Shown here piece by piece: positions 30,791 through 50,958 of a stretch of 64,000 bases of DNA. The notes beneath the pieces are model-generated. The model ran no database searches and was not told where the DNA came from. It saw only the letters and a program-made list of their open reading frames with translations. The position numbers were made by a program, and so were the translations under genes. Each line of letters starts with the position of its first letter. The stretch's first letter is position 1. Source of the DNA: Leptotrichia wadei (GTDB taxonomy: Bacteria > Fusobacteriota > Fusobacteriia > Fusobacteriales > Leptotrichiaceae); NCBI RefSeq assembly GCF_007990445.1, contig NZ_AP019841.1:1302001-1366000 (forward strand), given 5' to 3'.

Positions 30791-30877
30791 AAAAATAAAT
30801 CTTAAAATATTGTGTTTATTGAGATTTGTGGACTTTTATAAATAATAAACGTAACTTTTTATAAGGAGAAAATGATT

Positions 30878-31951: not shown

Positions 31952-31983
31952 AAAGTTGATAAAATAAAAAAGGAGCAAATATT

Positions 31984-32205: not shown

Positions 32206-32427
32206 ATAAGAAATCATATTTCTGATTATTTAGAAAATTATCAAATGGTTGTAGCAACAGGCGATAGAATTCGTATTCAAAAGGCGAAAGAAAGTTTCTC
32301 ACAGTTTCTTGATAAAATTGATCCTGAAATTAATGATATGAGTATAGAAGATATTTTGAAAAATTTTGAAGATGAACTGGAAGAAGAAGATATAAAAGAA
32401 GAAGATGAACTGGAATTTTGGAATTAA
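32204..32427 (+). pseudogene. duplicated 3' fragment of hscC
   Basis: 224 bp that match 30567-30790 with a few substitutions and no gaps by eye. They encode the last 74 residues of the Hsp70, ending DELEFWN, with K-to-A and M-to-S type changes. No ribosome site or own start belongs to it. It shows that a second hscC once stood here and was joined to a DKNYY gene by deletion or unequal recombination. Confidence 0.85.
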
Positions 32428-32552
32428 AAAATGGTTCTTAATTATGAAGAAAAATAATTAAATATTTAAATTTTAATGATTTTGAAATTACAAAAAATGA
32501 GGTAAAATATATTAAGAAAAAATAAAAATATTTAAAAAGAGGGAGAATAAAA

Positions 32553-33530: not shown

Positions 33531-33623
33531 TATTTTTGAATGACAAGGGAAATAAGAGCATTTATCAAAAAGAATTTAGATGAACATAACATTAAAACGA
33601 AAAATTGAAAATAAGGAGCGAAT

Positions 33624-36600
33624 ATGAAAACAAAAAATCTATTAAAAATATTAATTTTATTTATCCTAGCAGGAAGCATTGCAAATGCGGAATATTTAAA
33701 GGAAAATGGTGAAATTTATTATAAAATGCCATATTATGAGATTAAGTCGAAAGTAAAAGATGTAGATATTAAAAGTTTTGAACCTTTAAAGGAAGATAGA
33801 GGGCTTATTGGCGATTATTATGCAAAAGATAATAAATATGTTTATTTTTATGGTAAGAAACTTAAAAATGTTTTGCCTGAAGGATTTGAAACAGTAAAAG
33901 AAAATTATGTGAAAGATAGTAAAAATGTATATAAAATTGAAGCTGATATTACAGATAGTATACCAATATCTTCGGATAATAAAATAAATACGAAAAAAAT
34001 ATCTTTAGATGGACTTGATGTTAAAACTTTTAGAGCTTTAGAAAATGGCAAAGATGTTACGAGCATAGATTATTTTGTTGATAAAAATAATATTTACTAT
34101 GCCTATGAGAATTTGGAAAAAATACAAGGAGCAGATAAAAATTCTTTTGAGGTTTTGGGTAATTATATCGCAAAAGATAAAAATAATGTTTATTACAAAG
34201 GAAGAAAAATGGAAAATGTAGATTCTGCAAGTATTAAAACGTTCGGAAATTTTATAGGGAAAGATAAAAATAGAGTTTTTTACATTACAGGAAATGAGGA
34301 TATTAAAGATGCTGATGCGTCAAGTTTTGAGATAATGGGAGATACTTATTATTTTAGAGATAAAAATAATATTTTTGTTATTAAATACAGTAATGATTTT
34401 CCTGATGGAGAAGGTTTTATAAAATTACCAAATATTGATAGGAACAGCTTTATTACTTTGAGCGAGGAAATTGGAAAAGATAAAAATGGAGTTTATTATA
34501 TTGATGAAAAAATAAATGGGATTAATCCGAATAAAGTTAAAGTTATTGAGAAAATAGGACAGGACAATTATATTCTTCAAAGCGAAAATAATTACTATTT
34601 GACATTTAATAGCAATAGCGATTTGTATGACAGGAAAAACGATAAAATTGAAGCAAAAAAAATAAATAATTTGAACATTGATTTCAGTACATTTAAATAT
34701 TTTGGAATTTTTAACTATTATAAAGATAAAAACAGTTTTACTATCATTCAGATAATGATTTTAAAAAAATCAAAAGCGGAATTGATGTTGGAAGTGCTGA
34801 AAAAGTACTTGAATTGAATGATTTTGTAAAAGATAAAAATAATCTTTATTATTTTTCTAATGGAAAAATTGAGAAAATAAATTTGAATATTGATGTAAAT
34901 AGTTTAGTATTTTTGGATAATAACAATTCTTCTTACAGCAGTTATATAAAAGACAGAAATAACGTATATTTTGTAGATAATAAAAACGGGAAAGTGAGAA
35001 TAGTAAAAAATGCTGATAAAAATACATTTCAAATTGTAAACGGAAATTATGGAGTAGATGGAAAAAATGTTTATTATAATGGAGAAAAGCTAGATTCTGT
35101 TGGTATTGAAGGGCTTAAAATTTTTGATGATAACTACTTGAAGGATAATAAAAATGTCTATGAAATTTATACAACAGATGATGAAAAAATAAAAATAAGA
35201 GCAATAAAAAATTTAAACATTGATGTGGCAAGTTTTGAGAATATTTTTAAAGAAGCATTTTATAAAGATAAAAATTCGGTTTATTATGTCGATATGACTG
35301 AAGATAAACAGGAATTAAAAAAACTGGAAGGAGCAGATGCTGATACATTTGAGCCAGGAATTTTTTCAAAAGATAAAAATAGTGTTTTTATTGGAAATCA
35401 AAAGTTGGAAGGTGTGAGTTCTAAAGGGTTTGAAATATTAGATAATGAGTTTAATTTTGTGAAAGATTATAAGAATGTTTACTATTTGGATAGAGAAAGT
35501 GATGGGATTACTTATAAAGTAAAAGTTTTAGATACAAAAGGAGTTGACATTCCGAGTTTTGAATTTCTTGGAGATTCTTATAACAAATATTACAGAGATA
35601 AAAACAATATTTATTTTTTGAATGATAAAGTTGATAAAATGGAATTTGAAAAATTAGTTGGTGCGAATCCGAAAACATTTGAAATTATTGACAATTATTT
35701 TGCAAGAGATGATAAAAATGTTTATTTCTTTAATAAAAAAGTGATTGGAGTAGATGCGAAAACTTTTGAAGAAGTTGGTTATGATATTATAAAAGATAAA
35801 AATGGTTTACATATTTTAATAGATTCTAATGAAACTGAAATAAAGGTAAAAAGTTTGAAAGCAGATGGAATTGACTTGAAGACATTAAAGAAATTAGATA
35901 ACGGTTATTTTAAAGATAAAAATAATATTTACTATGGATTGAGTGGCAATCTTTATAAAATAAAAAATGCTGATTTACAAACATTTGAAGTTTTAAATTC
36001 GCCTTACAGCAGTTCTGTTTATTTTGCGAAAGATAAAAATAATGTTTATTATAATGGGAAAAAATTGGATGGAATTGTTCCTAATGATTTTGAACAGATA
36101 CAAAGTTATTTTATAAAAGATAAAAATGGAATTTATAAATTTGAAGAAGGTGAAAATGAACAAGATCTAAAAATAACTCCAATTAATGCAAAAATAGATT
36201 TTAAAAATCTTAAAGAATTAGATTGGAAGTATTTTGGAGATGATAAAAATATTTATTATTTTGATGAAGATAGTTTTAAAAAAGTAGATAAAGCAGATAT
36301 AAATTCATTTGAACGAATAGATTCTACTGGCTTTTTTAAAGATAAAAACAATGTTTATTATGAGGGAGAAAAAATAGAAGGAATAGATATGAATAGTATC
36401 GAAGTAATAAATGGAATGTGTATAAAAGATAAAAATAGTGTCTTTTATGAAGGGAAAAAATTAAGAAATATCAGTCCTAACAATTTTAATATTTTTGACG
36501 GTGGAATTTCATATGATAAAATTTTAGTTGACAAAAACGGAGCTTACAAATTGATGGAAAATGAAAATCAAAAAGATAAAATAAAAATAATTCCACTTGA

Positions 36601-36856
36601 TAGCAAAAATATTGACTTAAAAATTCTTGAAAGAATTGAATCTCCAATGAATAGTTCTAATTATTTTAAAGATAAAAATGGAGTTTATTTCTTGAATGGA
36701 GAAAAATTTGTGAAAATAAATGGAGCGGATATAGATACTTTTGAAGTGACAATGAGTGGAAAATATGGGAAAGATAGGAATAATGTTTATTTTGAAGGGA
36801 AGAAAATGGAAGGGGAGAATCCGAAGAAGTTTGAGGAGGAGATGGAGATTAAATAA
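33624..36856 (+). pseudogene. large DKNYY-repeat protein B, frameshifted
   Basis: Signal peptide (MKTKNLLKILILFILAGSIA then NA|EY) behind AAGGAG, then DKNYY repeats. The frame runs to a TGA at 34815-34817. From 34814 a second open frame continues the repeats to 36856. Adding one T to the run at 34736-34739 gives DKNSFYYHSDNDFKKIKSG, a perfect repeat continuation, and a 1077-residue protein. So this is one gene broken once, not two. About 30 repeat units are present in all. A sequencing indel or a phase-variable run cannot be excluded. Confidence 0.8.
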
Positions 36857-36910
36857 TAGGAATTGCTTTGTTGGAATTGCTAAATTTTGGAATAAAAAAG
36901 GAGAGTTATT

Positions 36911-38737
36911 GTGAACATTAAAAGATATTTGTTAAAAATTCTGCTTTTGTTTATTTTGGTAGGGAGTGTTGCGAATGCAGGGTATTTTAAAGAGAAAAAT
37001 AAAATTTATTTTATTGACACAATAGAAGATTCTGAGAAAAAAGAAGTTGTGAAAAATATTGATTTTAGGACTTTTAAAATTTTTGAAGAGAATGATAATT
37101 TTGCGAAAGACAAGGATAATGTTTACTATAAGAATAAAAAGCTGGAAAATGTAGATGTGAATTCTTTTCAGATTGAAAATCCTTTTATTGTAAAAGATAA
37201 AGATAATGTTTTTTATATTACAAATAATGAAATTATAAAAATTAAAGGATTTAGTCCAGAAAAAAGTAAAGTTATTGTTCAGTTTTACGTACCAACTATA
37301 CTAATTAATAAAAATGGTATTTATACTTTTGATAAATATGAAAATGGAGAAATTACGATAAAATCAATAAAACCTGCAGAAATAGATATGGATACTTTGA
37401 ATGTTGTTGATGGAGAGAATATGGCGATGCTTTTGTATTTAAAAGATAAAAATAATGTCTATTTTATTAATTATAAAGAAAGTGAACAAAAAATTTTAGA
37501 TACTGATATCGAAAATGCAGAAGAAACTGAGAATGATAACTATAGTATTGATATTGAAATAAAAAAATTAGAAGGAGTTGACAGTAATAGTTTTGAAATA
37601 GATTCTATATATGGAAAAGATAAAAAGAATTTATATTTTTTTAACAAAAAAATAACAGGGGTAAATCCTAAAACTTTTAAAGTTATTGGATCAAATAAAC
37701 TTATTATCAAAGATGATAAAGGGGTTTATTATCTTGGAAGAGAAGAAGTGAAAAAAATCCAAAATGCTGATTTAAATACTTTTGAAGAAGTATCGAAAGA
37801 GTATTATCGAGATAAAAATAATGTTTTTTACTATGATAATTATGATGGTGATGTAAAAAGAGTTAAAGGGGCAGATGCAAAAACTTTTGAAGCAATAGAA
37901 GGCTATGCATTGGGAAGAGATAAAAATGCTGTTTATGACAGAGGGAAGATGATAAAGGGCTTAGACCCTGTGACATTTGAAGATTTGAACGGAGATTTTT
38001 ATAAAGATAAAAATGGAGTTTACTACGAAGGAATGCTAATGAAAGGGATTGATTCAAAATCTTTTGAGCCATTCGTAAATTATACATATGTAAAAGATAA
38101 AAATGGAATATATTCCTTTTATCAAAAAGAAAATGAAGTTGTTGTTGAAAAAGTTGAAATTTCTCCAGAAATTGATTTAAAAACTTTACAACCTATCGAA
38201 AATTATTCTGAATATTCAAAAGATAAAAATAACGTTTATTATCATTTCAAAAAAATAGAAGGTGCTGATATAAAAACTTTTGAACCTGAAGGGTATTCTA
38301 TTGGAAAAGATAAAATGGGAGTATATTATGAAACTCGTAAAGTAAATGGAGTGGATGTAAATAGCTTTGAAGTTTTGAAAAATGATTTTTTTAAGGATAA
38401 AAATAATGTTTATTATAAAAATAAAAAGTTAGAAATATTCAAACCTAAAAACTTTGAAGTAATAGACTATTCTTTAGTAAAGCAAAATGAAGATTTGTAC
38501 TATTTTACTGAAGATGGAAATAATAACACAAAATTTGTTCCATTAGAAAGTAAAAATGTCGATATTGATACTTTTCAAATTCTTGATGATGATTATACAA
38601 AAGATAAGAATAATGTCTATTACAAAGGTAAAATTTTTAAGGAAGCAGATGTAAAAACTCTTGATAAACATTATAATAAAAATGATAACGGGTACAAAAT
38701 AAGGGATAAGAAAAAAGTGTATAAAACAAAAAAATGA
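36911..38737 (+). CDS. secreted DKNYY-repeat protein C
   Basis: 608 residues from a GTG at 36911 with GGAGAG five bases upstream. Signal peptide NIKRYLLKILLLFILVGSVA then NA|GY. The mature protein is a continuous run of DKNYY repeats (for example FFKDKNNVYYKNKKLEIFKP) to a basic C-terminus (KVYKTKK). No lipobox, no LPxTG and no membrane anchor, so it is probably secreted or attached at the outer surface by other means. Last gene of the hscC-DKNYY block. Confidence 0.87.
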   Translation: MNIKRYLLKILLLFILVGSVANAGYFKEKNKIYFIDTIEDSEKKEVVKNIDFRTFKIFEENDNFAKDKDNVYYKNKKLENVDVNSFQIENPFIVKDKDNVFYITNNEIIKIKGFSPEKSKVIVQFYVPTILINKNGIYTFDKYENGEITIKSIKPAEIDMDTLNVVDGENMAMLLYLKDKNNVYFINYKESEQKILDTDIENAEETENDNYSIDIEIKKLEGVDSNSFEIDSIYGKDKKNLYFFNKKITGVNPKTFKVIGSNKLIIKDDKGVYYLGREEVKKIQNADLNTFEEVSKEYYRDKNNVFYYDNYDGDVKRVKGADAKTFEAIEGYALGRDKNAVYDRGKMIKGLDPVTFEDLNGDFYKDKNGVYYEGMLMKGIDSKSFEPFVNYTYVKDKNGIYSFYQKENEVVVEKVEISPEIDLKTLQPIENYSEYSKDKNNVYYHFKKIEGADIKTFEPEGYSIGKDKMGVYYETRKVNGVDVNSFEVLKNDFFKDKNNVYYKNKKLEIFKPKNFEVIDYSLVKQNEDLYYFTEDGNNNTKFVPLESKNVDIDTFQILDDDYTKDKNNVYYKGKIFKEADVKTLDKHYNKNDNGYKIRDKKKVYKTKK

Positions 38738-38750
38738 TATTTTTTTGCAA

Positions 38751-38778
38751 TTGACTTTTTTTGAAAATATGATATAAT
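38751..38778 (+). promoter_or_regulatory. promoter P1 of the small RNA
   Basis: TTGACT (38751-38756) and TATAAT (38773-38778), 16-bp spacer. Start of transcription expected near G38785. Confidence 0.7.
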
Positions 38779-38784
38779 TAAATT

Positions 38785-38865
38785 GTTAAAAACCCTAAGG
38801 GAAAAAACTTTGTATTAAAGTAAAAAAATATTGGCAAATTAAACTGGAGTTTTCCAGTTTTTTTT
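38785..38865 (+). ncRNA. candidate antitoxin small RNA
   Basis: Predicted RNA of about 80 nt from promoter P1 to a strong terminator: AAACTGGA (38841-38848) pairs with TCCAGTTT (38853-38860), followed by a T-run to 38865. It contains two features of interest. CTTTGTATTAAAGTA (38808-38822) is perfectly complementary over 15 nt to 38899-38913, the segment just upstream of and entering the Shine-Dalgarno of the 21-codon ORF at 38927. CCCTAAGGG (38793-38801) is complementary to CCCTTAGGG at 39025-39033. These suggest an RNA that blocks translation of the ORF, as in type I toxin-antitoxin pairs. Confidence 0.6.
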
Positions 38866-38873
38866 GTTATAAT
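38865..38873 (+). promoter_or_regulatory. extended -10 promoter P2 of the 21-codon ORF
   Basis: TGT-TATAAT is an extended -10 element; no good -35 is present (TGGAGT at the 17-bp position). Transcription would begin near 38880, which would place the perfect stem-loop ATGAGTT-CCAAT-AACTCAT (38881-38899) at the very 5' end of the mRNA, a feature that stabilises such toxin mRNAs. Confidence 0.55.
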
Positions 38874-38926
38874 AATTTTAATGAGTTCCAATAACTCATA
38901 CTTTAATACAAAGGAGGTTTAGAGCA

Positions 38927-38992
38927 GTGAACAGCGATGAACTTATTAGACTTCTGGTTATTATGTATATTGTTTACAGACTGACTAGATAG
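38927..38992 (+). CDS. 21-residue hydrophobic peptide, candidate type I toxin
   Basis: A GTG start 9 bases after a perfect AAGGAGG (38911-38917). The peptide begins MNSDELIRLL, has a hydrophobic core VIMYIVY and ends RLTR, followed by TAG. The form (short acidic start, one membrane-spanning stretch, basic end) is that of small membrane toxins of type I systems. Its ribosome site lies inside the region complementary to the RNA at 38785-38865. No known toxin family matches by eye. It is too short for ordinary gene finders and probably missed in databases. Confidence 0.6.
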   Translation: MNSDELIRLLVIMYIVYRLTR

Positions 38993-39019
38993 TCGAAAAA
39001 TATCGAATTTCACCTCTGC

Positions 39020-39036
39020 CTCTACCCTTAGGGGAG
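39020..39036 (+). other. 3' hairpin with 5'-complementary loop
   Basis: CTC (39020-39022) TA CCC (39025-39027) TTA GGG GAG forms a small bulged stem. The CCCTTAGGG core (39025-39033) is the exact complement of CCCTAAGGG at 38793-38801, so the end of the ORF's transcript could pair with the start of the small RNA. Confidence 0.45.
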
Positions 39037-39059
39037 TTAAATTATTCAAATTATTAAAA

Positions 39060-39758
39060 TTAACAATTTTCTAAAATCCAAACAAATCCTTTTCCCATTC
39101 GTATATCAGAATCCCTAAAATGATTCCCCTCATTCCATTCCAAGATACATTTTTCCACATCTTCAGAATTTCTCAAAATCTCAAAATATTCCCTTATATT
39201 ATCCCCAATCTTCGATAAAACCTGATGTTTAGTCTTTTCCTCCAAATCTCCAAGACTCAAATAAACATTTTTTGCCAAAATCTCATTATTTTTCACAAAC
39301 TTAATCCAATCCTTATACCAAACCGACGGCGAAGCTCCAACAACTCCTGCAAAAATATCTGTCTGATACCCGCACCACAACGAAAACAATCCCGCAAGTG
39401 AATATCCTCCTAAAACATATTTCACATTATTTTCTTGAATATTCACAAGTTTTACCAAATTTGGAATCAATTTTTCCTTTATAAACTCTAATGTTTTACC
39501 AGCTCCATCGCCAAAATTTCCTTTTCCACGAAGAAGTGGCATTTCCCAAGGTGTCAGTTCACTATTCCAGTCTTCTATTTTGAAAGCTGCCAAGCTAAAA
39601 CTTTTATCTGTATTTTCAGAAATATATTTCACTTCATTGTCTAAAAGTTGCATATCATGCTCATCGACAGGCTGTATTAAAATATATTCTGTCTTTTTAT
39701 TTTCATTTGTATATAAAATACATTCTTTTTCTTCTATTTTGAAATTTAATTTTTTCAT
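39060..39758 (-). CDS. alpha/beta-hydrolase esterase (Fes/IroE-like fold)
   Basis: 232 residues, cytoplasmic. The nucleophile elbow GGYSLAGLFSLW (GxSxAG) and a late histidine in NEGNHFRD fit the esterase family PF00756, which includes siderophore esterases and acyl-transferases. It also has FAGVVGASPSVWY, typical of that family. The substrate is unknown and no siderophore genes are nearby. It reads towards the small-RNA locus, so its 3' end is convergent with 38927-38992. Confidence 0.75.
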   Translation of the reverse strand: MKKLNFKIEEKECILYTNENKKTEYILIQPVDEHDMQLLDNEVKYISENTDKSFSLAAFKIEDWNSELTPWEMPLLRGKGNFGDGAGKTLEFIKEKLIPNLVKLVNIQENNVKYVLGGYSLAGLFSLWCGYQTDIFAGVVGASPSVWYKDWIKFVKNNEILAKNVYLSLGDLEEKTKHQVLSKIGDNIREYFEILRNSEDVEKCILEWNEGNHFRDSDIRMGKGFVWILENC

Positions 39759-40008
39759 ATTTACTCCTTTTTTAATATTTTTTGAATATTGAATTTATTT
39801 TAAATAAATTTTGATTAATATAATTAATTATAGCATATGTTTTTAAAAATTTTATTCAATTTATTTATACTATTTTTATAATTTTTTTCTTTGATTAAAT
39901 ATATTTAATTTTTTTTTAAATTATGATAAAATAAACAAAATATTTAATAAAATCTGGAATTTTTGTAAGCTCTATCAACAAAAGAATATTTATAGAGAGG
40001 ATAATGAA

Positions 40009-40305
40009 ATGTTTAGAAGGAAAAAAGAAATTTTTTATGTTGGAAAAGTTAAAATTATTATTAATGAATCAACCCTTGATGTATTTAGAAATACAATATA
40101 TTATGTAGATGTGCAGAATGCCCTGTGTATTAAAGGTGTTCCGTTTATTACCTGCGATATTTACGAAGATGAATTTTCCGACCATTTAATTGCTCAGGTG
40201 GGACTGGAAGATGACGAGGAAAACGATATATTACCAAGTATAGAGGAACTGAAAAATAAAAAAATCGTTTGCTTTATTCAGTTAGATGAGCATATAATAA
40301 GATAA
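40009..40305 (+). CDS. unknown small protein
   Basis: 98 residues, not recognised. It begins MFRRKKEIFYVGKVKIIINE, contains two cysteines in CIKGVPFITC and an acidic C-terminal half (LEDDEENDILPS). No signal or membrane segment. GAGAGG precedes the ATG by 8 bases. It lies 53 bp ahead of the next ORF in the same direction and may share its transcript. The preceding 250 bp are AT-rich with promoter-like sequences but nothing firm. Confidence 0.6.
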   Translation: MFRRKKEIFYVGKVKIIINESTLDVFRNTIYYVDVQNALCIKGVPFITCDIYEDEFSDHLIAQVGLEDDEENDILPSIEELKNKKIVCFIQLDEHIIR

Positions 40306-40358
40306 AATTGTTGAAGTGTTCAAAATATATAAAAAATATTCAAATGGAGGTTATTTTT

Positions 40359-41132
40359 ATGAATATAGAAATTGTACAAATTTGTGATATTACATTAGCC
40401 GTAAAATTTGCCTTAAAAACAAAAACTAAAATCGAATATTTTCCTTTTGAATATGAAAAAAATATTGAATTTCTATTCTCTAAAAACAAAGTGGATTTTT
40501 TAGAAAATAGCTACAAAGCTGAAAATATTGAAGAATGGTTTGACTATTGTTTAAACTTAGGATTAGAAGACATAAAAATTTTATTACCTGTCTCATCTAA
40601 AAATTTAAATATTCCCGACGATTTAAATTCAAATAAGATTAAACTTATTTGCTATTTTAAAAATAATTTGATTCTTTATTTTACACCAAAATGGAAGAAA
40701 ACAAGTGGTGGATGGAATGTTACTTATACTGCTCACAAATACGAAAATTCTATCAATGAAAAACTTAAATTTTATGATAATACAGAAGATTTTAAAAATG
40801 TATTAAGTAAAATAGCAATTTTGGCTGATAAAATTAATTTTTCAAATTTTGGAAATATCTTTAGAAAAACTTTTAGCATTTTAAATGGGGAAAGTTTTGA
40901 AAATATAAGAAATACTTTTTATGGACAAACTCTTTTTAAAATACCTAAAATAAATGCAAGACTTTTTTATTCCGCCAAAATTTCTAATGTTTTTGGTGGA
41001 ATGAGTTCCTGGAATGACAGCCCTCCTTATTATGCACACGAAAAAGGGCTTGAAAGTGAATATGACAGTCTTACGGAAGAACTTTTGACACAAATTAGGC
41101 TTGCTCTTTTATATTCTGTAAATGAGTGGTAA
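40359..41132 (+). CDS. unknown protein
   Basis: 257 residues from the ATG at 40359, chosen because GGAGG is 7 bases upstream; an in-frame ATG at 40308 is not supported. Not recognised. Cytoplasmic with K/N-rich sequence, a conserved-looking TSGGWNVTYTAHKYENSINE and a C-terminal FGGMSSWNDSPPYY. It could be an immunity-type or regulatory protein given the neighbourhood of small orphan genes, but nothing in the sequence proves this. Confidence 0.6.
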   Translation: MNIEIVQICDITLAVKFALKTKTKIEYFPFEYEKNIEFLFSKNKVDFLENSYKAENIEEWFDYCLNLGLEDIKILLPVSSKNLNIPDDLNSNKIKLICYFKNNLILYFTPKWKKTSGGWNVTYTAHKYENSINEKLKFYDNTEDFKNVLSKIAILADKINFSNFGNIFRKTFSILNGESFENIRNTFYGQTLFKIPKINARLFYSAKISNVFGGMSSWNDSPPYYAHEKGLESEYDSLTEELLTQIRLALLYSVNEW

Positions 41133-41160
41133 AATATAGTAAAATTATAATGAAGGATTT

Positions 41161-41304
41161 ATGGAATTTTTTCAAAAGATATTTATTGTTGTAGTTGTAG
41201 TAACAATTATTTTTCTAATAAAAAAATTAATGATAACAAAAAACTTAGAAAAAATTGAAGTTGATGATGAGTTGAAAGAAAAATTAAATAAATTAGTAAA
41301 ATAA
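41161..41304 (+). CDS. small single-span membrane protein
   Basis: 47 residues, below usual size limits. A hydrophobic segment FIVVVVVTIIFLI (about residues 8-20) is followed by a charged tail (NLEKIEVDDELKEKLNK). AAGGA stands only 3 bases before the ATG, so translation may be weak. In line with 40359 and 41373. Family unknown. Confidence 0.5.
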   Translation: MEFFQKIFIVVVVVTIIFLIKKLMITKNLEKIEVDDELKEKLNKLVK

Positions 41305-41372
41305 TACATTATATCTTTTTATAAATTTGAATAAAATAAATTAGTAAATTAAAAAATATGGAGGATAAAAAA

Positions 41373-42302
41373 ATGAGTATAAGTTTTTATGTGAAAAACA
41401 AGAAAAAATTTTTAGGTTATAAAGCCGTTTTAAATGTTGAAACTGCATTGAGTTTACTTGATAAGGAACTTTATACCTACAATACTGGAAATATTGATAT
41501 TAATGATTTACTGCTATCTCCAGTTTCTAATTATCAGTGTCTTTTAATAGGAGACGGTAAGGAAAGTGCAAGAGGATTTGAGCTATCTTATGACACAAAA
41601 TATAACAATTATGTTGTAAGGATTTTTACGCCGTCATCTAGGGAAGATTGGCTTTTGGCATTGGAATATATAAAAGCGTTGGCTAAAGAATTTGATTCGG
41701 AGATTTTGAATGAGAGAGGTGAAGTTTATACTGCTGGTAACATTGATAAATTTGACTATGAATCAGATATACTTTATGGAATAAAAGTAATTACAGAAAA
41801 TATAAAAAGTGGAGAATCAGATACTTATGTTATTTTTGGTACAACTAGACCTGTTTCTTTCAATGAAGAAATGGTAGATGAAATAAATAATTCAAATAAT
41901 CCTATAGATACTTTTTCAAAAATAGTAAGAAACATTCAAAATTTAGATGCTTATTCGGCAAATCAACGTTTTTATAAAAATGATGAAGATGAAAGAATTA
42001 TGGGAGCTTATAGTCTGACAGAAAATGTTAGAACAATTCTTCCTTATAAACCTAGTGTTGAATTTCATAATTTAGATATCGTTAAAAATGATGACATAGC
42101 TTTTTGGAATATAGGTTTCGTTACTATTAATGGAGATGAAAATGATCCAAACAGTTATCAAGTTATTGGTCAATTAGATTATAATGATTTTATAAAAAAA
42201 TTACCAAAAGATAAGTATCGTTTTATTGACGCTTCATACATTCTTGTTGAGCCGTTAAGTAAAGAAGAAATTTTAGGATTTTTGGAAATATCTGTTAATT
42301 AG
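41373..42302 (+). CDS. DUF4299 family protein
   Basis: 309 residues. Begins MSISFYVKNKKKFLGYKAVL and has the block YTYNTGNIDINDLLLSPVSN and FELSYDTKYNNYVVRIFTPS, which I associate with DUF4299 proteins of Firmicutes and Fusobacteria. Cytoplasmic, function unknown. GGAGG lies 7-8 bases before the ATG at 41373; the upstream ATG at 41358 overlaps this site. DUF4299 identification is from memory of the N-terminus and should be confirmed with a profile search. Confidence 0.7.
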   Translation: MSISFYVKNKKKFLGYKAVLNVETALSLLDKELYTYNTGNIDINDLLLSPVSNYQCLLIGDGKESARGFELSYDTKYNNYVVRIFTPSSREDWLLALEYIKALAKEFDSEILNERGEVYTAGNIDKFDYESDILYGIKVITENIKSGESDTYVIFGTTRPVSFNEEMVDEINNSNNPIDTFSKIVRNIQNLDAYSANQRFYKNDEDERIMGAYSLTENVRTILPYKPSVEFHNLDIVKNDDIAFWNIGFVTINGDENDPNSYQVIGQLDYNDFIKKLPKDKYRFIDASYILVEPLSKEEILGFLEISVN

Positions 42303-42342
42303 AATAAAATGACTTTAAAATACTAAAATTAGGAGGCATAAA

Positions 42343-43116
42343 ATGGATAAAAATCGTAAAAGATGGGGTTATATCTTTGATGAAAAATTAGATATGTTGA
42401 TTCCTAATATTCCAAGACAGAAAAAATTTGTAAAAATATTTTTGATTTTATCATTAATATTTTTTATCATTGCTCTAATGCAACTATATTTTTTAGATAA
42501 AACTTCCCCAAAACAAATAATATTTTTGATTTATAGTGGAGGTTCAGTTTTTTTTCTTTTGTTTTTATCTATTGTTATAAAAGTAAATATTTATTTCATC
42601 GAAAAAAAATTGAAACAACTTGAAGAAATGACATTGCCATATGAATTTGAAATTCATCCACTAAAAGATAATTCATATATTTTTTTGTGTATTCTATTCT
42701 TTATTATGTTTATTACAATACTCTATCTTAAATTAAATGAATTGTTAAAAAATTTTACATCAAAAGATATTTTTTTCGTTATTTTCATGATTATAACGAT
42801 TGCCGTCAATTTTAGCTTTTTTTTGGAAAATCTCAAAAAAAGAAAATATTCTTTAATCATAAATGGAAAAATTATAAAATTATTATATGAAAACAATGAA
42901 ATAGAATTTATAGAAATTGATAATATCCGTTATGCCAAATTTTATGCGGCTAATGCTGGAAAAGGCAGAAAAGAAAGAAATCCTACTTTTCAAATTTTTG
43001 ATAAAGAAGAGAAAAAATTTGTTGAAATGTCTATCAAGCCAACTGATTATTGTTTGCTGAAAAAATATTTTACAAAATATAATGTGATGATTGTTGATTT
43101 ATATGATTATTTCTAA
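42343..43116 (+). CDS. membrane protein with PH-like C-terminal domain
   Basis: 257 residues. Four membrane segments (about 29-48, 58-82, 108-128, 140-158) are followed by a cytoplasmic domain (about 165-257) beginning YSLIINGKIIKLLYENNEIE and ending in a helix; the strand-rich pattern resembles a bacterial PH/YcxB-like domain. GGAGG lies 7 bases before the ATG. First of three consecutive proteins of this plan (42343, 43186, 43650). No function can be assigned. Confidence 0.65.
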   Translation: MDKNRKRWGYIFDEKLDMLIPNIPRQKKFVKIFLILSLIFFIIALMQLYFLDKTSPKQIIFLIYSGGSVFFLLFLSIVIKVNIYFIEKKLKQLEEMTLPYEFEIHPLKDNSYIFLCILFFIMFITILYLKLNELLKNFTSKDIFFVIFMIITIAVNFSFFLENLKKRKYSLIINGKIIKLLYENNEIEFIEIDNIRYAKFYAANAGKGRKERNPTFQIFDKEEKKFVEMSIKPTDYCLLKKYFTKYNVMIVDLYDYF

Positions 43117-43185
43117 GAGTCTATATGATTTTAGAAATAAAAATTTTTTTTAATTACAAAATTAAAAAATAAGGAGAAAAATATA

Positions 43186-43560
43186 ATGTTTATTTTTATG
43201 TTGATATTGCAATTGGTAGTACTTATTATTAGTATCACAACTATTATCTATTTAATAAAAAGAAAGAACACAATGGAATGTTTTTACATAGAAAATGAAA
43301 TTTTATGCCTAAACTCTATGCCTACAAAAAAGATTCCACTTTCTGATATTGATTACATAGAATTTTATTGCAGTCGTTTTCGTAATAATTGCAGAGGATT
43401 GATAAAGGTTCATACGATAAATTCAAAAGTAGTCAAACGATTTTTTCAAACAAGTAAATTTACATTTTTTGTTACTGAACAAATGGTTTTAGATGAAATT
43501 AATAAATTGACACCTATTTTGAAGGAATATTCGATACCGTATACTATTAACTATAATTAA
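43186..43560 (+). CDS. membrane-anchored PH-like small protein
   Basis: 124 residues: one N-terminal membrane helix (about 1-24, LVVLIISITTIIYLI) and a compact domain (about 33-120) with MECFYIENEILCLNSM and KIPLSDIDYIEFY. The strand order and a C-terminal helix (MVLDEINKLTPIL) resemble the PH-like fold of YcxB-type proteins. AAGGAG precedes the ATG by 8-9 bases. The shared plan with its neighbours suggests duplication followed by divergence. Confidence 0.6.
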   Translation: MFIFMLILQLVVLIISITTIIYLIKRKNTMECFYIENEILCLNSMPTKKIPLSDIDYIEFYCSRFRNNCRGLIKVHTINSKVVKRFFQTSKFTFFVTEQMVLDEINKLTPILKEYSIPYTINYN

Positions 43561-43649
43561 ATTTTGAATATTATAGTTATAGAATTTTAAAAAATTTAAT
43601 TATATTTATTCAAAATAACAAATTTTATACTAAAAAGGAAGTGTTTTAA

Positions 43650-44408
43650 ATGGGAATATATGAAATGATTGTAGGAACAATGTTTATACCATTTTTATTT
43701 ATTTTATCAATATTTTTTTCTTTATCATTAAGAAAAAGAAACATGCAAAAAATTATATCCGCTGAAATTAGTGATGACTTAAAAGACTTAAAACCACGAG
43801 AATTTTTTTATAATTTATTAAAAATGGAAAGAACAGCAAAACCAGTTTATTGCGCAGAAATTTTCTTATTGGCAATAGACACTATTTATATCTTATTCGG
43901 TGGGTATGCTGAATATCTAAAAGAGTTAAAATTTGCACAAGAGTTTCCTGATTTTCCAATCAATCCTATGTCATTTGTATTTATTAAATTTGGCATTCCT
44001 ATTTTTTTATGGTTTACTATACTTTTTCTATTATTATTTGCCTTATTTATGAAAAAGAAAGAGAATAAAAGATTAGCCGAAATGCTAGATAACTTAGAAA
44101 AATACAGATTTTTAAATTATGCAAAAGAAGATTTTATCAACTCTGAGAAAATAGTTAAAACTGGAATGGTCTCACAAAGTGATTTAAAAATTGGAAACAG
44201 ATATTTATTTTCTGTCTATCCAGCATACATAATTCCTTATTCTTGGATTTCTGATATAAAAATTGATAGAGTTTATAATCGTGGAGGAAGTTATTCATCT
44301 TTAACTTTTATTTTTACTAAATCTTTTAAATATGAGAAAATATTTTTTGCTAAAAAGGAGGTTGCTGAAAAGGTTAGGAATTTTATTTTGGGAAATGAAG
44401 ATTTTTAG
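43650..44408 (+). CDS. membrane protein with PH-like C-terminal domain
   Basis: 252 residues. Membrane segments at about 8-27, 68-85 and 107-132, and a C-terminal domain (about 165-252) with YPAYIIPYSWISDIKIDRVY and SLTFIFTKSFKYEKIFF, again a PH-like strand-rich pattern ending in a helix. AAGGAAG stands before the ATG. It is convergent with the SNF2 gene at 44457, separated by an inverted repeat. Confidence 0.6.
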   Translation: MGIYEMIVGTMFIPFLFILSIFFSLSLRKRNMQKIISAEISDDLKDLKPREFFYNLLKMERTAKPVYCAEIFLLAIDTIYILFGGYAEYLKELKFAQEFPDFPINPMSFVFIKFGIPIFLWFTILFLLLFALFMKKKENKRLAEMLDNLEKYRFLNYAKEDFINSEKIVKTGMVSQSDLKIGNRYLFSVYPAYIIPYSWISDIKIDRVYNRGGSYSSLTFIFTKSFKYEKIFFAKKEVAEKVRNFILGNEDF

Positions 44409-44437
44409 AGAGTGTCAATTAAAATTTTTACACTCTC
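44408..44437. terminator. inverted repeat between convergent genes
   Basis: GAGAGTGT (44408-44415) and ACACTCTC (44430-44437) form an 8-bp perfect stem around an AT-rich loop. No T-run follows on either strand, so it may be a transcription end only in a broad sense. Confidence 0.45.
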
Positions 44438-44456
44438 AAAAACCCTACTATTTAAT

Positions 44457-46340
44457 TTAAAGTTTTAAGTCTTTAAATATAACTTCAATATCATCTTCTA
44501 TACTTCCTAAAGATTCCAAAATATCTTCATCAATTGCGTCTAACATAATTTTTTCTTTTTCTAAAAGTCTTTGATATATTTTTTGATCTAAAGAATATTC
44601 AAATCCATCTCTTGTTACAAATATACTTTGTAAAAAATAATATTGTGTATATTGCCCTTCTTTTAATCCTAAACGATGTATTCGATCCTTTGATTGTAAT
44701 AAATGTACTAAATTATAACTGTATTCATAATAAATTGCATCGTGGCAAACAGAGTGTAAAGAAACTGATTCTGCTAAGGTATGTGGATTTGTAATTAATA
44801 CATCAATTTCTTTTTCTTTAAATTTATTTAATATATTTTTTCTTTCTTCTTCTGAAGTACTACCAAAAATGACACCTGTAGATATTCCCTCCTTTTCCAA
44901 TTGAGAAGCCAACTGTCGAATTGAATCAACAAAAATACACCAGATAATTACTGACTTCCCTTCTGAATTAAGTTGCTTTACTTGTTGAATACAGGAATTA
45001 AATTTTTCAGTTTTACCAAAAGAATTTATTAAATCTTTGATATCCTGTGAATAATCAACATAATCAATATCTTCTGGATCTGATGTAGTATCCAATATAG
45101 CTGAAAAATCTTCTTGATTTTCAGATATAGCTTTTAATAACATTTTAGGATTTGATTCTAACTGTAATAACCTAATAATTAATGCTAATTTGTTTTTAGC
45201 ATATTTTAACAATAAAATATTAAAAATTTTATTTTCTTTATCTGATAGTTTGCATGGTAAAATAATATCTGGATTAACTTCAGGAACTTCCAATTGCTTT
45301 TTTGTTGTTCTACAAAAAAATGGTTTTATCTTTTTGTTGATATTTTCTATATCATATTCACTTGGAATCCTTAACTGGGCATCTCCAAAACCAAAAAAGT
45401 CATTGTATTCTTCATGATATAAAATATGTAATAAATTCTTAATGTCAAGATACGAATTTGGAAGGGGTGTTCCTGTTAATGCTATTGTATATCTAGCATT
45501 ATATGATATTTTGAGAGCATTCTTAGCTCTTTTACCATTTGGATTTTTTACTTTATGAACTTCATCAAAAACAAGCAGTGTTTTATCATCTATAATATTT
45601 TTTACCTCTTCCAAAATAGAATCTAAACTTTCATAATTAAAAAGTAGTAAATTTTTTTTATGAACTGCTTTATACAATAAGGCATTTTTCTTATCTCTTG
45701 AATTTGAATAATCTTGAATATTAAATAATTCTAATTTTCTTTTATTACCAAAACAATTATAAAATTCATCTTTCCATGAAATAAAAGAACTTCTAGGCCC
45801 AATCATAACTATTTTATCTACCAAACCTTTGTAGGATAAAAAACTAAAAACTCCATAAACTGAAGATGTTTTTCCAGAACCTGGTACAGAAAAATTAGCA
45901 GATTTTCTCATTGCAAACATAAAAAATGAATCCCAAGCCTGTTTTTCCCTTAATTTTCTTACCATTTGACTATCAATAACAGCTCTATAACTGTTATATT
46001 TTTCCAAGATTTCCTCAGTCTGACTTTTAATTCCTAAACCCACTCTTGATCTTTCATTAATATATATTTCTCTTTTTTGTATGTACTCTTCCACTTCTTT
46101 TGAAACGTGAAAATCAATATTATTTTTTGAAGAATATTTTTCTATTATTTCAATTATTTTTTTATATTTTATATAACCTATTTCTTTTTTAAAAAATAAT
46201 TTATTTTCCTCTGTCTTATCCCTAGAAACATATCTTTTTAATTGTAATTTATAAACTCTATTTCTCTTTAAATTAGAAATCATCGAAGAAACAAGAACTA
46301 AAATATCATTTTCAAATTGAAGTGTCAAATTATCATTCAC
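44457..46340 (-). CDS. SNF2-type helicase of a three-gene cassette
   Basis: 627 residues from a GTG at 46340, which follows GAGGAGG by 9 bases and overlaps the ParB-like gene by 8 bases (GTGAATGA); this is a translational coupling. Superfamily 2 motifs: Walker A FSVPGSGKTSSVYG (about 150-163), Walker B LLVFDEVHKVKNP (about 256-268), motif III ALTGTPLPNSYLD, motif V LITNPHTLAESVSLH and motif VI LQSKDRIHRLGL. No nuclease or methyltransferase domain is seen. It resembles the helicases of defence systems rather than RapA. It probably acts with the two upstream gene products. Confidence 0.85.
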   Translation of the reverse strand: MNDNLTLQFENDILVLVSSMISNLKRNRVYKLQLKRYVSRDKTEENKLFFKKEIGYIKYKKIIEIIEKYSSKNNIDFHVSKEVEEYIQKREIYINERSRVGLGIKSQTEEILEKYNSYRAVIDSQMVRKLREKQAWDSFFMFAMRKSANFSVPGSGKTSSVYGVFSFLSYKGLVDKIVMIGPRSSFISWKDEFYNCFGNKRKLELFNIQDYSNSRDKKNALLYKAVHKKNLLLFNYESLDSILEEVKNIIDDKTLLVFDEVHKVKNPNGKRAKNALKISYNARYTIALTGTPLPNSYLDIKNLLHILYHEEYNDFFGFGDAQLRIPSEYDIENINKKIKPFFCRTTKKQLEVPEVNPDIILPCKLSDKENKIFNILLLKYAKNKLALIIRLLQLESNPKMLLKAISENQEDFSAILDTTSDPEDIDYVDYSQDIKDLINSFGKTEKFNSCIQQVKQLNSEGKSVIIWCIFVDSIRQLASQLEKEGISTGVIFGSTSEEERKNILNKFKEKEIDVLITNPHTLAESVSLHSVCHDAIYYEYSYNLVHLLQSKDRIHRLGLKEGQYTQYYFLQSIFVTRDGFEYSLDQKIYQRLLEKEKIMLDAIDEDILESLGSIEDDIEVIFKDLKL

Positions 46341-47583
46341 TATCGGTTTCCTCCTCAGTTTTTTGATCAATCTCTTCTAATCTATCTTCTAACTTCTCAA
46401 TTTTTTTCTTTAACTCATCTATTTTCCCTTTTAATTCTTCTATTTGGTCATCTTTTAATTTATCCAAAATTTTAAGATCAATCTCATCTAAACTATTACA
46501 TGCCTTTTCCATAGATTTTAACGGTGCATTTCTAGTTTTTTCCCCTGCAGATCTTGTAACATACTTTTCTGTTGTACGCAAAAACTCATTTTTTATTTTT
46601 TTATCTTCTGCTATTTCACCGATTTTTTTACTTGCATTTTTATCAGATTCTTCTAATTTTTCACAAACTTGTTCCACAATCGGAGATTGCTCTTTCAAGT
46701 AATCTTTTAAATGTTTTAGATTAGCTGCAATATCATTTATTTTTCTTATATATCTAGTTAAATCTCCAGCAGGTTTGCTTAAAAATTGACTAAATACAGC
46801 ATTCTTCAAATTTTCTTTAATATCTTCATCATTAATTTTTTTTAACATTTTCTGTAATTCCTTTAAAGGATCTACAAGATCTAAATCTCTAGCCAAATGA
46901 AATTGTTTTTCTGCATCAATAAATTCTAGAAACTCAGCTAATAAATTTGCTCTTTCAACTTCTGAAATTATATTTTTTTCTGTATCATTTACACTTTTAG
47001 CATATTCTGCTGTTGTTAATAATTTTGTTTCCACAATATCATGATAAATTCCCACTAATCTTTCAATAGGACTATACCCAACTTTTTCGTCAACACCATG
47101 CTGTAACATAAGTTCTAACATTTTTATATCTTTTTCATTATTCTCAATACTGTAATCCAATATAACAGCTTCAAAATACTGCTCTTTATGAGTTTCCTTC
47201 TCAATATTTCTCAAACATGTGAATCTCCGATTTCCATCAATAATACGTCCATCTAACAGTACCACTCCTACTTCTATCTGTCCAATAGCTTTTATATTTT
47301 GTTGAGTTTTTTTTAATGCATTATAATTACTTTCTGTAATAAACCTATGAATAATTTCATTATAACTTTCTCTATCAGAATAATCTATTTTATCAATATT
47401 ATTTTCCATTTTATATCTTGAAATCCAAGTGGAAATTCTATCATTTTGATCATTGTAAAATAACTTATCCAATCTAATCTTATAAATTGGATAATCTTTT
47501 GAATGATTTCTGATGACTAATTTTTTTTTATTTTCTGTTTTAAATACAGACTTTTCTGCTAAATCGTTTTCTAATAAATTCAT
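46333..47583 (-). CDS. ParB-like protein of the three-gene cassette
   Basis: 416 residues. A ParB/Srx-like core lies near 90-120 (NIKAIGQIEVGVVLLDGRII then DGNRRFTCLRNI), in which DGNRR is the family's DG(x)RR motif. A helical middle part follows, then a coiled coil at about 370-410 (EELKGKIDELKKKIEKLEDR) and an acidic end. ParB-fold proteins bind DNA and hydrolyse CTP or act as nucleases; which applies here is unknown. The start is one base after the 980-residue gene's stop region, and it overlaps the helicase gene, so the three are one unit. Confidence 0.75.
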   Translation of the reverse strand: MNLLENDLAEKSVFKTENKKKLVIRNHSKDYPIYKIRLDKLFYNDQNDRISTWISRYKMENNIDKIDYSDRESYNEIIHRFITESNYNALKKTQQNIKAIGQIEVGVVLLDGRIIDGNRRFTCLRNIEKETHKEQYFEAVILDYSIENNEKDIKMLELMLQHGVDEKVGYSPIERLVGIYHDIVETKLLTTAEYAKSVNDTEKNIISEVERANLLAEFLEFIDAEKQFHLARDLDLVDPLKELQKMLKKINDEDIKENLKNAVFSQFLSKPAGDLTRYIRKINDIAANLKHLKDYLKEQSPIVEQVCEKLEESDKNASKKIGEIAEDKKIKNEFLRTTEKYVTRSAGEKTRNAPLKSMEKACNSLDEIDLKILDKLKDDQIEELKGKIDELKKKIEKLEDRLEEIDQKTEEETDSE

Positions 47584-50526
47584 TTATATCACCTCATAAT
47601 AAATTTCATAATCTGCAAACACTATTTTAGAAATAGGGTCATAAAACATAGAAGTAGACTTTACAGAACTAATAACATCGTGCACATCAAGCACAATATT
47701 ATATTCATCTCTTAATAAATCGTTTAAGTCATAAACTTCTATATAAAGTTTTTCCTGTTTATACACAATACGCTCTAAAAAATCTTCAAAATTTGCTCCT
47801 TCACCATTACTATACATAAGTTTATTTTTCCCTATTCTTCTATAGGAAATTCTATTCTTATCTTCAATAAGAATAGATGTATAAAAATAATCGTCAAATC
47901 CCAGTTCATCTAATTCATGATAAAATCCATTTTTCTTCAATGAAAATGTTGTAAAATACTTATCTTTTCCTATAAATTCTAAAACATCTGAACAATATTG
48001 TTTTAAATCTTCTTTTGTTATTCCTAGTTTTTTCAATTTACTAAAATTAACAAATTTATTTGGTGAAAATTCAATAATTTCATATACATATTTTAATCTA
48101 TAAATTTGAGAAATAAACATCGGCAAAGATTTTATTTTAGAAGATATATCATCCAATTTTACAATCTCATTTTTTTGTAAAAATTGATAAAAATAACTAG
48201 ATGCTGAGTCATATTGACTTTTTACAATATATCCTCCAGAAATTTTATATCCTAATTTTTTTAATAAAATTGGATTCAAAAATTCCTTTTTATAGTTTGG
48301 AAATGTTTTTTCAATTTTTTCTCTAACTTCTTGAACTGCATAAAGTTCTTCAGATAATATATCTTTTAGCTCAAGAAAAATTGAATCATCATACTCTTCA
48401 AATTTTATATCGTATATTCCACTGCAATTATATTCATCTATGTAAGAAAGATAATTAGCTGCAAATGTTTTAGAATCAACCCCATAAAAATCTTCATATT
48501 CATTTATAAAGTCCTGTTTTGAAATAGGAGATAATAATGACAACAACTCTTTTACCTGCTGTTCTCTATCAGCTTTACCAAATTCTATTGACGGCATTCT
48601 ACCAAATTTTATTTCAGGATATTTATCCACAGTACATATCTTTTTTAACAAATTATGAAGTTCATATTCATCACGAATATCATACATTTTCATTAAATCA
48701 GGATACATTTTAAAAAATTTCAGACTTGAATATTCCTCATTTTTATACTGGCTTAAATTTAAAGTTTCTAAAAAGTCGCTAAAATCATATCCTAAAATAT
48801 TATAATATCTAAATTTTTTCTTTGGTTTCCATAAAACATTCATATCATCTCTTATACGATTTTCATAACTTCTATCCACAATTTTAAGACTTTCTTCTTT
48901 TTCATAACCTAATTCAGTTAAAAACATATCATACATTTCTTTAAATTCAATATAAGACATTCCATCATTAGCAAAATGCTTTATAATATAATTTGTAAAA
49001 CTTGCTCTCCCCACGAGTATTCTTTCTTTATCGAAAGTAATATAATCTTTATAAACAAATTTTTCAAAAACTCTCCGAATTATAGCAGGAATCTCTTCAT
49101 CTTCTAAAAGCTCCTGTAATGATTTTCTCACATTTTTAACCTGATTTAACTCATTTCTATATCTCAAACTTAAATAGTTATATGTTTCTTCTTCTCTTAA
49201 GGCAACTAGAAATGCCTCTTTATTCACATCATATTTTAAATATATATCCTTAAAAAAATCTTCTTTAAATTTTCCAAAAGATAATTTTTTCAATCCTTTT
49301 GCTTCAATCTGTCTTACTCTTTCTCTTGTTATCTCTAAAGTATCTCCTATTTCTTCCAATGTTTTCCCAGAAATTCTATTTAAAAAGATATTTGCTTCAT
49401 TTTCTGTCAAATAATTGTACACTTCTTCTTTAACACTTTTATATACAATTACAAATCTATCATCATATAACTTTTTAATTAAGTTTGATTCGCATAAATA
49501 TTCAATAGTTTTTTTATATATTTTTTTATCTTTTAAAATTTCAGGAATACTTTCCCATAAAATATCTTCTTCAATTCCGTAAATATTTTTAGATATTTGC
49601 CTAATAATATATTTTAACCACTTTTCTTTCCCATAACTATTTTTCCACCATAAAAGCGAAACTATATTTTCAGTTATATAATTATAATCATTTTCCTCTG
49701 TTAAATCAGTATACTGCACAAAAGAAAAATAGTGATCAGAAATATTTGAAATCAACTTTTCAGTATTGCAATTTAATATTGCAGCAACTTTTTTAAAAAA
49801 ATCAACACTTTCTTTTGAAATTTTTTCTTCTTCTGATCCCTTATCTTCAATATTAGCTGGTATTCCAAAATAAAAAAATATAAGAAATTTAAATCTTTGC
49901 AGTTCTTTTAGAGTCTTTCCCCCCATTTGCTTTATTGCCTTCAATTCTTCTTTCGTTTTATAAAAAAGCTGAGAACAGTATTTAATATTAGCAATCTTCA
50001 AACAATTTTTAGCTCTTGCTGAAAGTCTTAAATAATCTATACTTATATCTCCCCTTATATTTATTGGAACTTCAATGTTAAGATCCCTTCTTATACTTCT
50101 TATTTCCTTTTGTACTGTATTTTCCAAATATTCTGGTAATTCAAATTCCTCATCACTCTTGGTAAGAAGTTCTGAATAATACTCTATACCAAGTTCCTTT
50201 AAAAAATTTTTACTTTCTTCTGAAAGTCCTAAATCCTCAATAGGAATATCTTTATATTTTTCTCCAAATTTATTTGTGAAATATTTATCTTTTGATATTT
50301 TCATTTCTATTTCAGAAATATCTATATTATCAAAATTATGATCTTTTAGCATTTCTATCTTTGATAATATTTCTTGAATAGATTTTTTTCCTATCCCTTT
50401 GAAATTTTTTATATCTTCTACCGAAACAGTTAATAAATCTTGAACAGTAATAATATTAAATTTTTCTAAAACATTATAAGATCTTTTTGATAATTGAAGT
50501 ATTTGAATTGACGTATCTTTTTTCAT
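47584..50526 (-). CDS. giant RNAP-alpha-CTD/sigma-region-4-like protein
   Basis: 980 residues. Three alpha-CTD-like helix-hairpin-helix units are visible: 9-58 (LQLSKRSYNVLEKFNIITVQ...FKGIGKKSIQEIL), about 97-145 (LGLSEESKNFLKELGIEYYS) and 163-213 (LRLSARAKNCLKIANIKYCS...IKQMGGKTLKELQ). At 381-415 is a sigma region 4-type helix-turn-helix, TLEEIGDTLEITRERVRQIE. The remaining 560 residues are helical with no motif I know. It probably binds DNA, perhaps recruiting RNA polymerase or recognising sites for the helicase. AAGGAG lies 9 bases before the ATG. First gene of the cassette. Confidence 0.75.
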   Translation of the reverse strand: MKKDTSIQILQLSKRSYNVLEKFNIITVQDLLTVSVEDIKNFKGIGKKSIQEILSKIEMLKDHNFDNIDISEIEMKISKDKYFTNKFGEKYKDIPIEDLGLSEESKNFLKELGIEYYSELLTKSDEEFELPEYLENTVQKEIRSIRRDLNIEVPINIRGDISIDYLRLSARAKNCLKIANIKYCSQLFYKTKEELKAIKQMGGKTLKELQRFKFLIFFYFGIPANIEDKGSEEEKISKESVDFFKKVAAILNCNTEKLISNISDHYFSFVQYTDLTEENDYNYITENIVSLLWWKNSYGKEKWLKYIIRQISKNIYGIEEDILWESIPEILKDKKIYKKTIEYLCESNLIKKLYDDRFVIVYKSVKEEVYNYLTENEANIFLNRISGKTLEEIGDTLEITRERVRQIEAKGLKKLSFGKFKEDFFKDIYLKYDVNKEAFLVALREEETYNYLSLRYRNELNQVKNVRKSLQELLEDEEIPAIIRRVFEKFVYKDYITFDKERILVGRASFTNYIIKHFANDGMSYIEFKEMYDMFLTELGYEKEESLKIVDRSYENRIRDDMNVLWKPKKKFRYYNILGYDFSDFLETLNLSQYKNEEYSSLKFFKMYPDLMKMYDIRDEYELHNLLKKICTVDKYPEIKFGRMPSIEFGKADREQQVKELLSLLSPISKQDFINEYEDFYGVDSKTFAANYLSYIDEYNCSGIYDIKFEEYDDSIFLELKDILSEELYAVQEVREKIEKTFPNYKKEFLNPILLKKLGYKISGGYIVKSQYDSASSYFYQFLQKNEIVKLDDISSKIKSLPMFISQIYRLKYVYEIIEFSPNKFVNFSKLKKLGITKEDLKQYCSDVLEFIGKDKYFTTFSLKKNGFYHELDELGFDDYFYTSILIEDKNRISYRRIGKNKLMYSNGEGANFEDFLERIVYKQEKLYIEVYDLNDLLRDEYNIVLDVHDVISSVKSTSMFYDPISKIVFADYEIYYEVI

Positions 50527-50958
50527 AATTAAAAAACTCCTTCTCTGCTTTTAATTAATGTTCAAATTTTATGCTGCTATGCTCTACTTTTTAATGTACA
50601 TCTCACATTTTAAACTCAACTTTTTATAAAAAACTTTTTGTATTTCTTCATAATTAAACAGTTTTATATTTTGAAAAATATTAATTCCATTATTTAGAAC
50701 AAAAATATTAACTATTTCTAAGTCTAATAGCATTTAAGTATAGTAACATTATATTTCATTTATTTAATAGTTTACTTTATTTAAAAATAAATATCAAGAT
50801 AAATTGTAATTTCAAAAAATTATAAAATAAAATATTTATAAAAATTTTTTGCCCAAAACATTTTATTTTCTCATTCATTTATTTTTCAAAAATTTACAAA
50901 GCCAATATTTTTTGGTATAATGAAATTAAATAATTTTTTAGAAAGTGATGTGATAAAA
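50527..50958. other. 432-bp divergent intergenic region
   Basis: The region is very AT-rich and holds the divergent promoters of the three-gene cassette (minus) and the M20 peptidase (plus, 50893-50921). No ORF, RNA or clear repeat besides an ATTTTAAACTC tract near 50608-50620. The composition change and the cassette's isolation are compatible with an insertion boundary here. Confidence 0.5.
50893..50921 (+). promoter_or_regulatory. promoter of the M20 peptidase gene
   Basis: TTTACA (50893-50898), 17-bp spacer, TATAAT (50916-50921). The -10 element overlaps the ATG at 50920, so that ATG cannot be the translated start; transcription begins near 50928. Confidence 0.75.

Follow-up and report, generated by a model that had tools for sequence, protein, structure and literature searches.

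The described systems closest to the locus studied here each share some of its parts. PglW of type 2 BREX is a large defence protein in which a domain like the C-terminal domain of the RNA polymerase (RNAP) alpha subunit (alpha-CTD) is followed by winged-helix modules, and MzaA of the MZA anti-phage system is a defence protein with a sigma-70-like region. SNF2/SF2 ATPases take part in DNA-targeting defence in DISARM (the helicase DrmD), Dpd and Zorya (ZorD). The ParB, Noc and Spo0J proteins and the plasmid KorB-type clamps share a fold with a GxRR phosphate-binding region, and the glutamate of the canonical ParB motif GERR is catalytic. Restriction-modification loci of types II and III, as in Enterococcus faecium p1818-a and Priestia megaterium pBP01R2b, contain adjacent ParB and SNF2 genes that are homologous to those described below and stand in the same order.

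The window, the whole stretch of 64,000 nucleotides of Leptotrichia wadei DNA that was analysed, holds a cassette of three genes encoding a protein that we call SIG, a ParB-like protein and an SNF2 helicase. We consider it rather probable that this cassette is a self-contained, mobile, restriction-like module against invading DNA. The features of the locus are:

47584-50526, minus strand: SIG, ATG start, 980 aa
46333-47583, minus strand: ParB, ATG start, 416 aa
44457-46340, minus strand: SNF2, likely GTG start at 46340, 627 aa, 8-bp overlap with ParB
44406-50877, no strand: inserted unit, a stretch absent from close relatives, whose collinear site is empty (BLASTN)
44408-44437, no strand: inverted repeat GAGAGTGT...ACACTCTC at the left junction

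The genes run from 50526 to 44457 in the order SIG, ParB, SNF2, at the coordinates that the first-pass annotation of this DNA had given. The 8-bp overlap that it reported is exact (GTGAATGA, between the SNF2 GTG at 46340 and the ParB stop), whereas the one-base gap is not there, the SIG stop abutting the ParB ATG with 0 bases between. The SNF2 reading frame can be extended upstream to a TTG at 46370, which is the start chosen by the ORF caller. In homologues, the ParB-SNF2 overlaps are mostly 4 to 23 bp long, with 8 bp among the two commonest lengths. In Staphylococcus pasteuri (locus L047, 13-3087), ParB and SNF2 form a single reading frame of 1,024 aa. The inverted repeat at the left junction is a possible terminator between convergent genes; the terminator scan gave it no score, and in DNA as rich in A and T as this neither terminator nor promoter scans were informative.

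The cassette had been placed at the edge of an accessory island and described as lacking housekeeping neighbours. The first claim stands for the left side only, where the accessory stretch lies. The second does not stand, as the nearest neighbours on the right are ordinary conserved genes, identified from their sequences as M20 peptidase and RlmD-like, which are found in 13/13 genomes of the genus. The accessory stretch (28976-44408) encodes several DKNYY proteins, DUF1963 and DUF4299 proteins, small membrane proteins and one Hsp70, and parts of it differ among the genomes of the genus. The immediate neighbours of the cassette are DUF/DKNYY proteins and housekeeping genes, without defence genes, and the neighbourhood is not a typical defence island.

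Domain composition of the three proteins

The predicted parts of SIG and ParB are:

SIG, residues about 3-58, 85-150 and 160-216: alpha-CTD-like repeats (Pfam, PDB profile search, AlphaFold, Foldseek)
SIG, residues 373-415: sigma region 4 helix-turn-helix (Pfam, PDB profile search, AlphaFold, Foldseek)
SIG, residues about 430-979: tandem winged-helix array (AlphaFold model, Foldseek)
ParB, 416 aa: N-domain with D111-G-R..D116-G-N-R119-R120, a helical DNA-binding-like domain and a C-terminal coiled coil

The combination of three alpha-CTD-like domains with sigma region 4 in one protein, as first proposed for SIG, is borne out by Pfam (three RNA_pol_A_CTD stretches, 1e-36; one Sigma70_r4, 4e-10) and by the AlphaFold model (pLDDT 83), the N-terminal parts of which match RNAP alpha-CTD and sigma region 4 in Foldseek with a probability of 1.0. 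Residues about 430 to 979 are modelled as repeating helix-helix-helix-strand-strand units, which weakly match the winged helices that SelB, UFL1 and ESCRT-II carry in tandem. Among 40 SIG proteins, Pfam finds Sigma70_r4 in 39 and RNA_pol_A_CTD in 34 but sigma region 2 (Sigma70_r2) in none, and it does not find the alpha N-terminal assembly domain in these or in the window SIG. Since both of these parts are absent, SIG is not a sigma factor.

In the numbering of E. coli rpoA and rpoD, the contact residues are widely kept among the 40 SIG proteins. For alpha-CTD these are R265 (in 34), N268 (32), N294 (35), G296 (36), K298 (33), S299 (28, and Thr in 6 more) and E302 (36), and for sigma region 4 they are R584 (39), E585 (38), R586 (39), R588 (38) and Q589 (all 40). 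In the window SIG, the second alpha-CTD repeat lacks the equivalents of R265 and G296, and the N294 position is Gly in the first. With these contacts conserved and the main polymerase-assembly parts absent, the DNA-reading functions appear to be under selection; by analogy with their known roles in E. coli, the residues would serve promoter-like DNA.

The identity of the ParB protein is settled by its predicted fold, where sequence profiles fail. The best Pfam match is an unconvincing ddrB-ParB (E=0.035), Pfam ParB_N does not detect the protein, a sequence profile search of the PDB gives no match, and hhalign against a single ParB is weak. The AlphaFold model (pLDDT 89), however, matches the crystal structures of CDP-bound ParB, Noc and Spo0J (7bnk, 6sdk, 7ol9, 1vz0) with Foldseek probabilities of 0.99 to 1.0, so that the label "ParB-like" is upheld by the fold and not by Pfam. 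A reading as a DUF262/GmrSD protein was dropped because the best fold matches are ParB and Noc. In 38 homologues, R119 and R120 are invariant, and N118, at the position of the catalytic glutamate, is nearly so; because GNRR replaces the canonical GERR, CTP hydrolysis may be absent.

The SNF2 assignment is clear, with Pfam matches to SNF2-rel_dom (PF00176, 2e-20) and Helicase_C. Helicase motifs I, II, III and VI are conserved in 27 homologues (GSGKT, DEVH, TGTP, QSKDRIHRLG), and longer relatives have a PLD-like domain at the N-terminus.

Co-occurrence and links to restriction genes

A ParB-seeded scan of 84,980 species genomes yielded 72 loci, several of them from metagenome assemblies, and some gene starts are uncertain because the ORFs were called mechanically. 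Among the 44 loci with room on both sides, which include near-identical and therefore not independent copies, 28 have the order SIG-ParB-SNF2 and 12 the order HEPN-ParB-SIG, with two archaeal ParB-SNF2 loci and two loci without either partner making up the rest; as the seeds were SIG-linked ParBs, these numbers describe close ParB relatives. The three families travel together across phyla and are not bound to a single housekeeping operon; rare co-occurrence or such a tie would, by the first-pass annotation's own account, have spoken against its reading. Divergence is most strongly correlated between ParB and SNF2 (rho 0.85), followed by SIG and SNF2 (0.79) and SIG and ParB (0.59).

The HEPN-ParB-SIG loci have no SNF2 and often have a HIRAN protein. 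In eight of the variant loci (L058, L060, L065, L067, L071, L075, L077 and L089), HEPN_Swt1 is fused to ParB and followed by SIG and usually HIRAN; this variant without SNF2 comes chiefly from gut and rumen Clostridia. A profile search finds a gene like the SIG C-terminus in one of the two archaeal ParB-SNF2 loci. In Methanomassiliicoccaceae archaea (L085-L086), the protein upstream of ParB-SNF2 (721 to 731 aa) resembles the C-terminal half of SIG only, and these loci also encode a Sau3AI-like enzyme and a C5 methylase.

In 13 loci, a C5 methylase, a Sau3AI/MutH-like enzyme or both are found near the cassette, and in one (L083, 4817-8752) a Sau3AI/MutH-like restriction enzyme is fused to SIG in a protein of 1,311 aa. 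For 26 loci with 123 neighbour proteins, PADLOC reports 9 REase_II and 9 MTase_II; in a control of 123 proteins from 16 of the 26 source genomes, matched in protein number and not in genome position, it reports 0 restriction-modification proteins. Distant ParB-SNF2 pairs without SIG lie in operons with a C5 methylase and Sau3AI- or BanI-like enzymes, others adjoin NOV_C/DUF3883 or HNH proteins, and in Lactobacillales a type III Mod-Res pair directly precedes ParB-SNF2. Restriction-modification genes replace SIG in these distant operons, and the SIG position is therefore the position of the methylase and restriction genes. In the ParB tree, loci with the same type of partner cluster together, though deep placement is unsure owing to long branches. 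Seven Lactobacillales type III Mod-Res operons on plasmids and phage-like contigs (L173-L178, L181) end in ParB and SNF2, which are apparently accessory restriction genes.

No nuclease, methylase or restriction enzyme is recognisable in the three genes of the window, and restriction-modification genes are absent from their surroundings. A search of the host genome for C5 methylase and MutH/Sau3AI types found neither, so the window cassette cannot depend on them, and dependence on C5 methylation was rejected for this host. Without these enzymes, the restriction reading does not account for how self would be told from non-self, which counts against it, as do the missing nuclease and restriction-modification genes, the immediate neighbours of the cassette and the GNRR motif of ParB.

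This lack of a nuclease is what a transcription-directed device would lead one to expect. Here, SIG would bind promoters or RNA polymerase and a RapA-like SNF2 would strip or block the polymerase, silencing invader (or host) promoters and leaving the DNA uncut. RapA, as cited in PMC12839542, offers a precedent for SNF2 proteins able to act on RNA polymerase, and the RpoD-type −35 and alpha-CTD 265-determinant residues kept in most of the 40 relatives would fit as well. We nevertheless regard this main rival as unlikely, given that relatives are paired with or fused to DNA nucleases and restriction enzymes, that ParB-SNF2 pairs without SIG stand inside restriction-modification operons, and that SIG lacks the main polymerase-binding parts, sigma region 2 and the alpha N-terminal domain.

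Mobility and distribution of the cassette

The cassette is a horizontally spread mobile unit. In a genome of the same genus (L098), the flanks are collinear with the window at about 90% identity, window position 44405 corresponding to 13970 and 50878 to 14047, and 76 bp replace the window stretch 44406-50877 (BLASTN). Five more genomes of the genus (L099-L102, L106) have no cassette between the same flanks, and full SIG is found in 0/12 of the other genus genomes. The module is rare, with intact SIG and its partners in 1/33 genomes of the family and ParB in 5/291 genomes of the Clostridia class. Other genera of the family (L107-L110) carry SIG without ParB or SNF2, and two of these SIG-alone copies are broken by frameshifts or stops.

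The gene order is the same across several phyla, and the cassette is frequent on Enterococcus plasmids and also found on many chromosomes. The Enterococcus plasmid proteins share about 43 to 46% (ParB) and 46 to 48% (SNF2) identity with those of the window, and one plasmid copy is flanked on one side by a type I restriction system and on the other by two AAA-ATPase genes, possibly an McrBC-like pair judging by their sequences. The ParB tree is discordant with taxonomy; it pairs the window copy with Fusibacter, and closely similar copies are found in Cohnella, Desulfosporosinus and Lacrimispora.

Six actinobacterial genera carry a near-identical element with a short SIG (L055-L057, L059, L061, L062, L090), which consists of a methylase-like gene, a helicase of 1,127 aa, the short SIG, ParB and SNF2, mostly with a DUF262-like protein; the near identity of the copies suggests a very recent transfer. 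In PHROGs, the SNF2 reading frame (44457-46370) also has a match at 1e-61 to phrog_62, a large family of phage helicases, hinting at an exchange of SNF2 with large phage proteins.

The frequent carriage by Enterococcus plasmids, together with the ParB fold and the phrog_62 similarity of SNF2, could also point to maintenance or self-protection of the mobile element (partition, anti-restriction or establishment), aiding the persistence of plasmids and islands. We hold this to be distinctly unlikely, as many copies are chromosomal, SIG has no match in phage records, restriction enzymes and not methylases alone are associated, and a ParA-like motif is found near only 1/76 loci, at a contig edge; a ParABS partition system was rejected, as it would be without ParA. 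A DNA-repair or replication-restart module processing broken ends, such as those made by the restriction-modification neighbours, would agree with the SNF2 motor and with the HIRAN protein adjoining the variant without SNF2, but is very unlikely given a patchy mobile spread (5/291 and 1/33 genomes, as above) unlike that of housekeeping repair.

Proposed mode of action and comparison with known systems

The defence or DNA-surveillance role put forward in the first-pass annotation has good comparative support in the co-travel of the genes, their mobility, the restriction-modification loci and the nuclease fusions, and it is from these that we infer it. As a restriction-like module, the cassette would use SIG as its recognition subunit, with the alpha-CTD, sigma-4 and winged-helix modules docking on DNA, probably AT-rich and promoter-like, without RNA polymerase. 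The ParB-fold protein would be loaded at the SIG site as a nucleotide-dependent clamp, and the SNF2 ATPase would translocate on the clamped DNA, either blocking it or exposing it to a nuclease. In some relatives the nuclease would be built in, as PLD on SNF2 or as the Sau3AI-like enzyme fused to SIG, and in others it would be encoded next door, as the NOV_C/DUF3883 or HNH proteins. As the window has no recognisable nuclease, cutting by ParB, cutting by a host nuclease or plain blocking must be assumed there.

A more specific version, which we consider unlikely, is that the defence recognises the promoters of the invader, SIG reading −35/UP-like elements, loading the ParB clamp and dispatching the SNF2 motor. 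If so, promoter-like sequence would be the cue and a methylation mark on self DNA would not be needed.

Should the restriction-like reading be true, the cassette would be an autonomous three-gene system, a clamp-plus-motor machine targeted by a subunit made of RNA polymerase promoter-recognition modules, and ParB-SNF2 would be a common engine for varied recognition parts (type II/III restriction-modification, SIG). It would also give a testable role to genes of many Enterococcus plasmids whose current annotation reads "hypothetical protein" or "sigma factor-like".

The three-gene system appears to be undescribed in the literature and libraries searched. We found no description of the cassette in the literature, and PADLOC, NCBIfam and PHROGs gave core-domain matches only, with NCBIfam scores far below the cut-offs and no known system assigned, in line with the first-pass annotation. 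The protein type may have been noticed before, as the 2012 HARE-HTH survey by Aravind and Iyer reportedly mentions bacterial proteins "combining features of RNAP alpha and sigma"; these possibly have the same alpha-CTD and sigma-4 combination as SIG. The 40 SIG proteins have no HARE-HTH domain detectable by Pfam, and a HARE-HTH identity of the SIG winged helices, which also found no support in a profile test (with a home-made HARE set, one row of which was mis-framed), was rejected.

SIG differs from PglW in having no NERD nuclease, kinases or iSTAND domain, reaches 43.5 bits where the cut-off is 990, and has no other BREX genes (PglX/PglZ/BrxC) beside it. To MzaA it matches over about 30 residues (35.5 bits, cut-off 800), without Mza partners. 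The window SNF2 matches DISARM, Dpd and ZorD proteins in the ATPase core only, the other components being absent; against DrmD it scores 44.3 bits (cut-off 610), and DrmA, DrmB, DrmC and the methylase are missing. The window ParB, unlike the ParB/Noc/Spo0J and KorB-type clamps, has no ParA and carries GNRR in place of GERR. In the restriction-modification loci of E. faecium p1818-a and P. megaterium pBP01R2b, the position that SIG has in the window is taken by Mod-Res, or by a C5 methylase and a Sau3AI/BanI-like enzyme.
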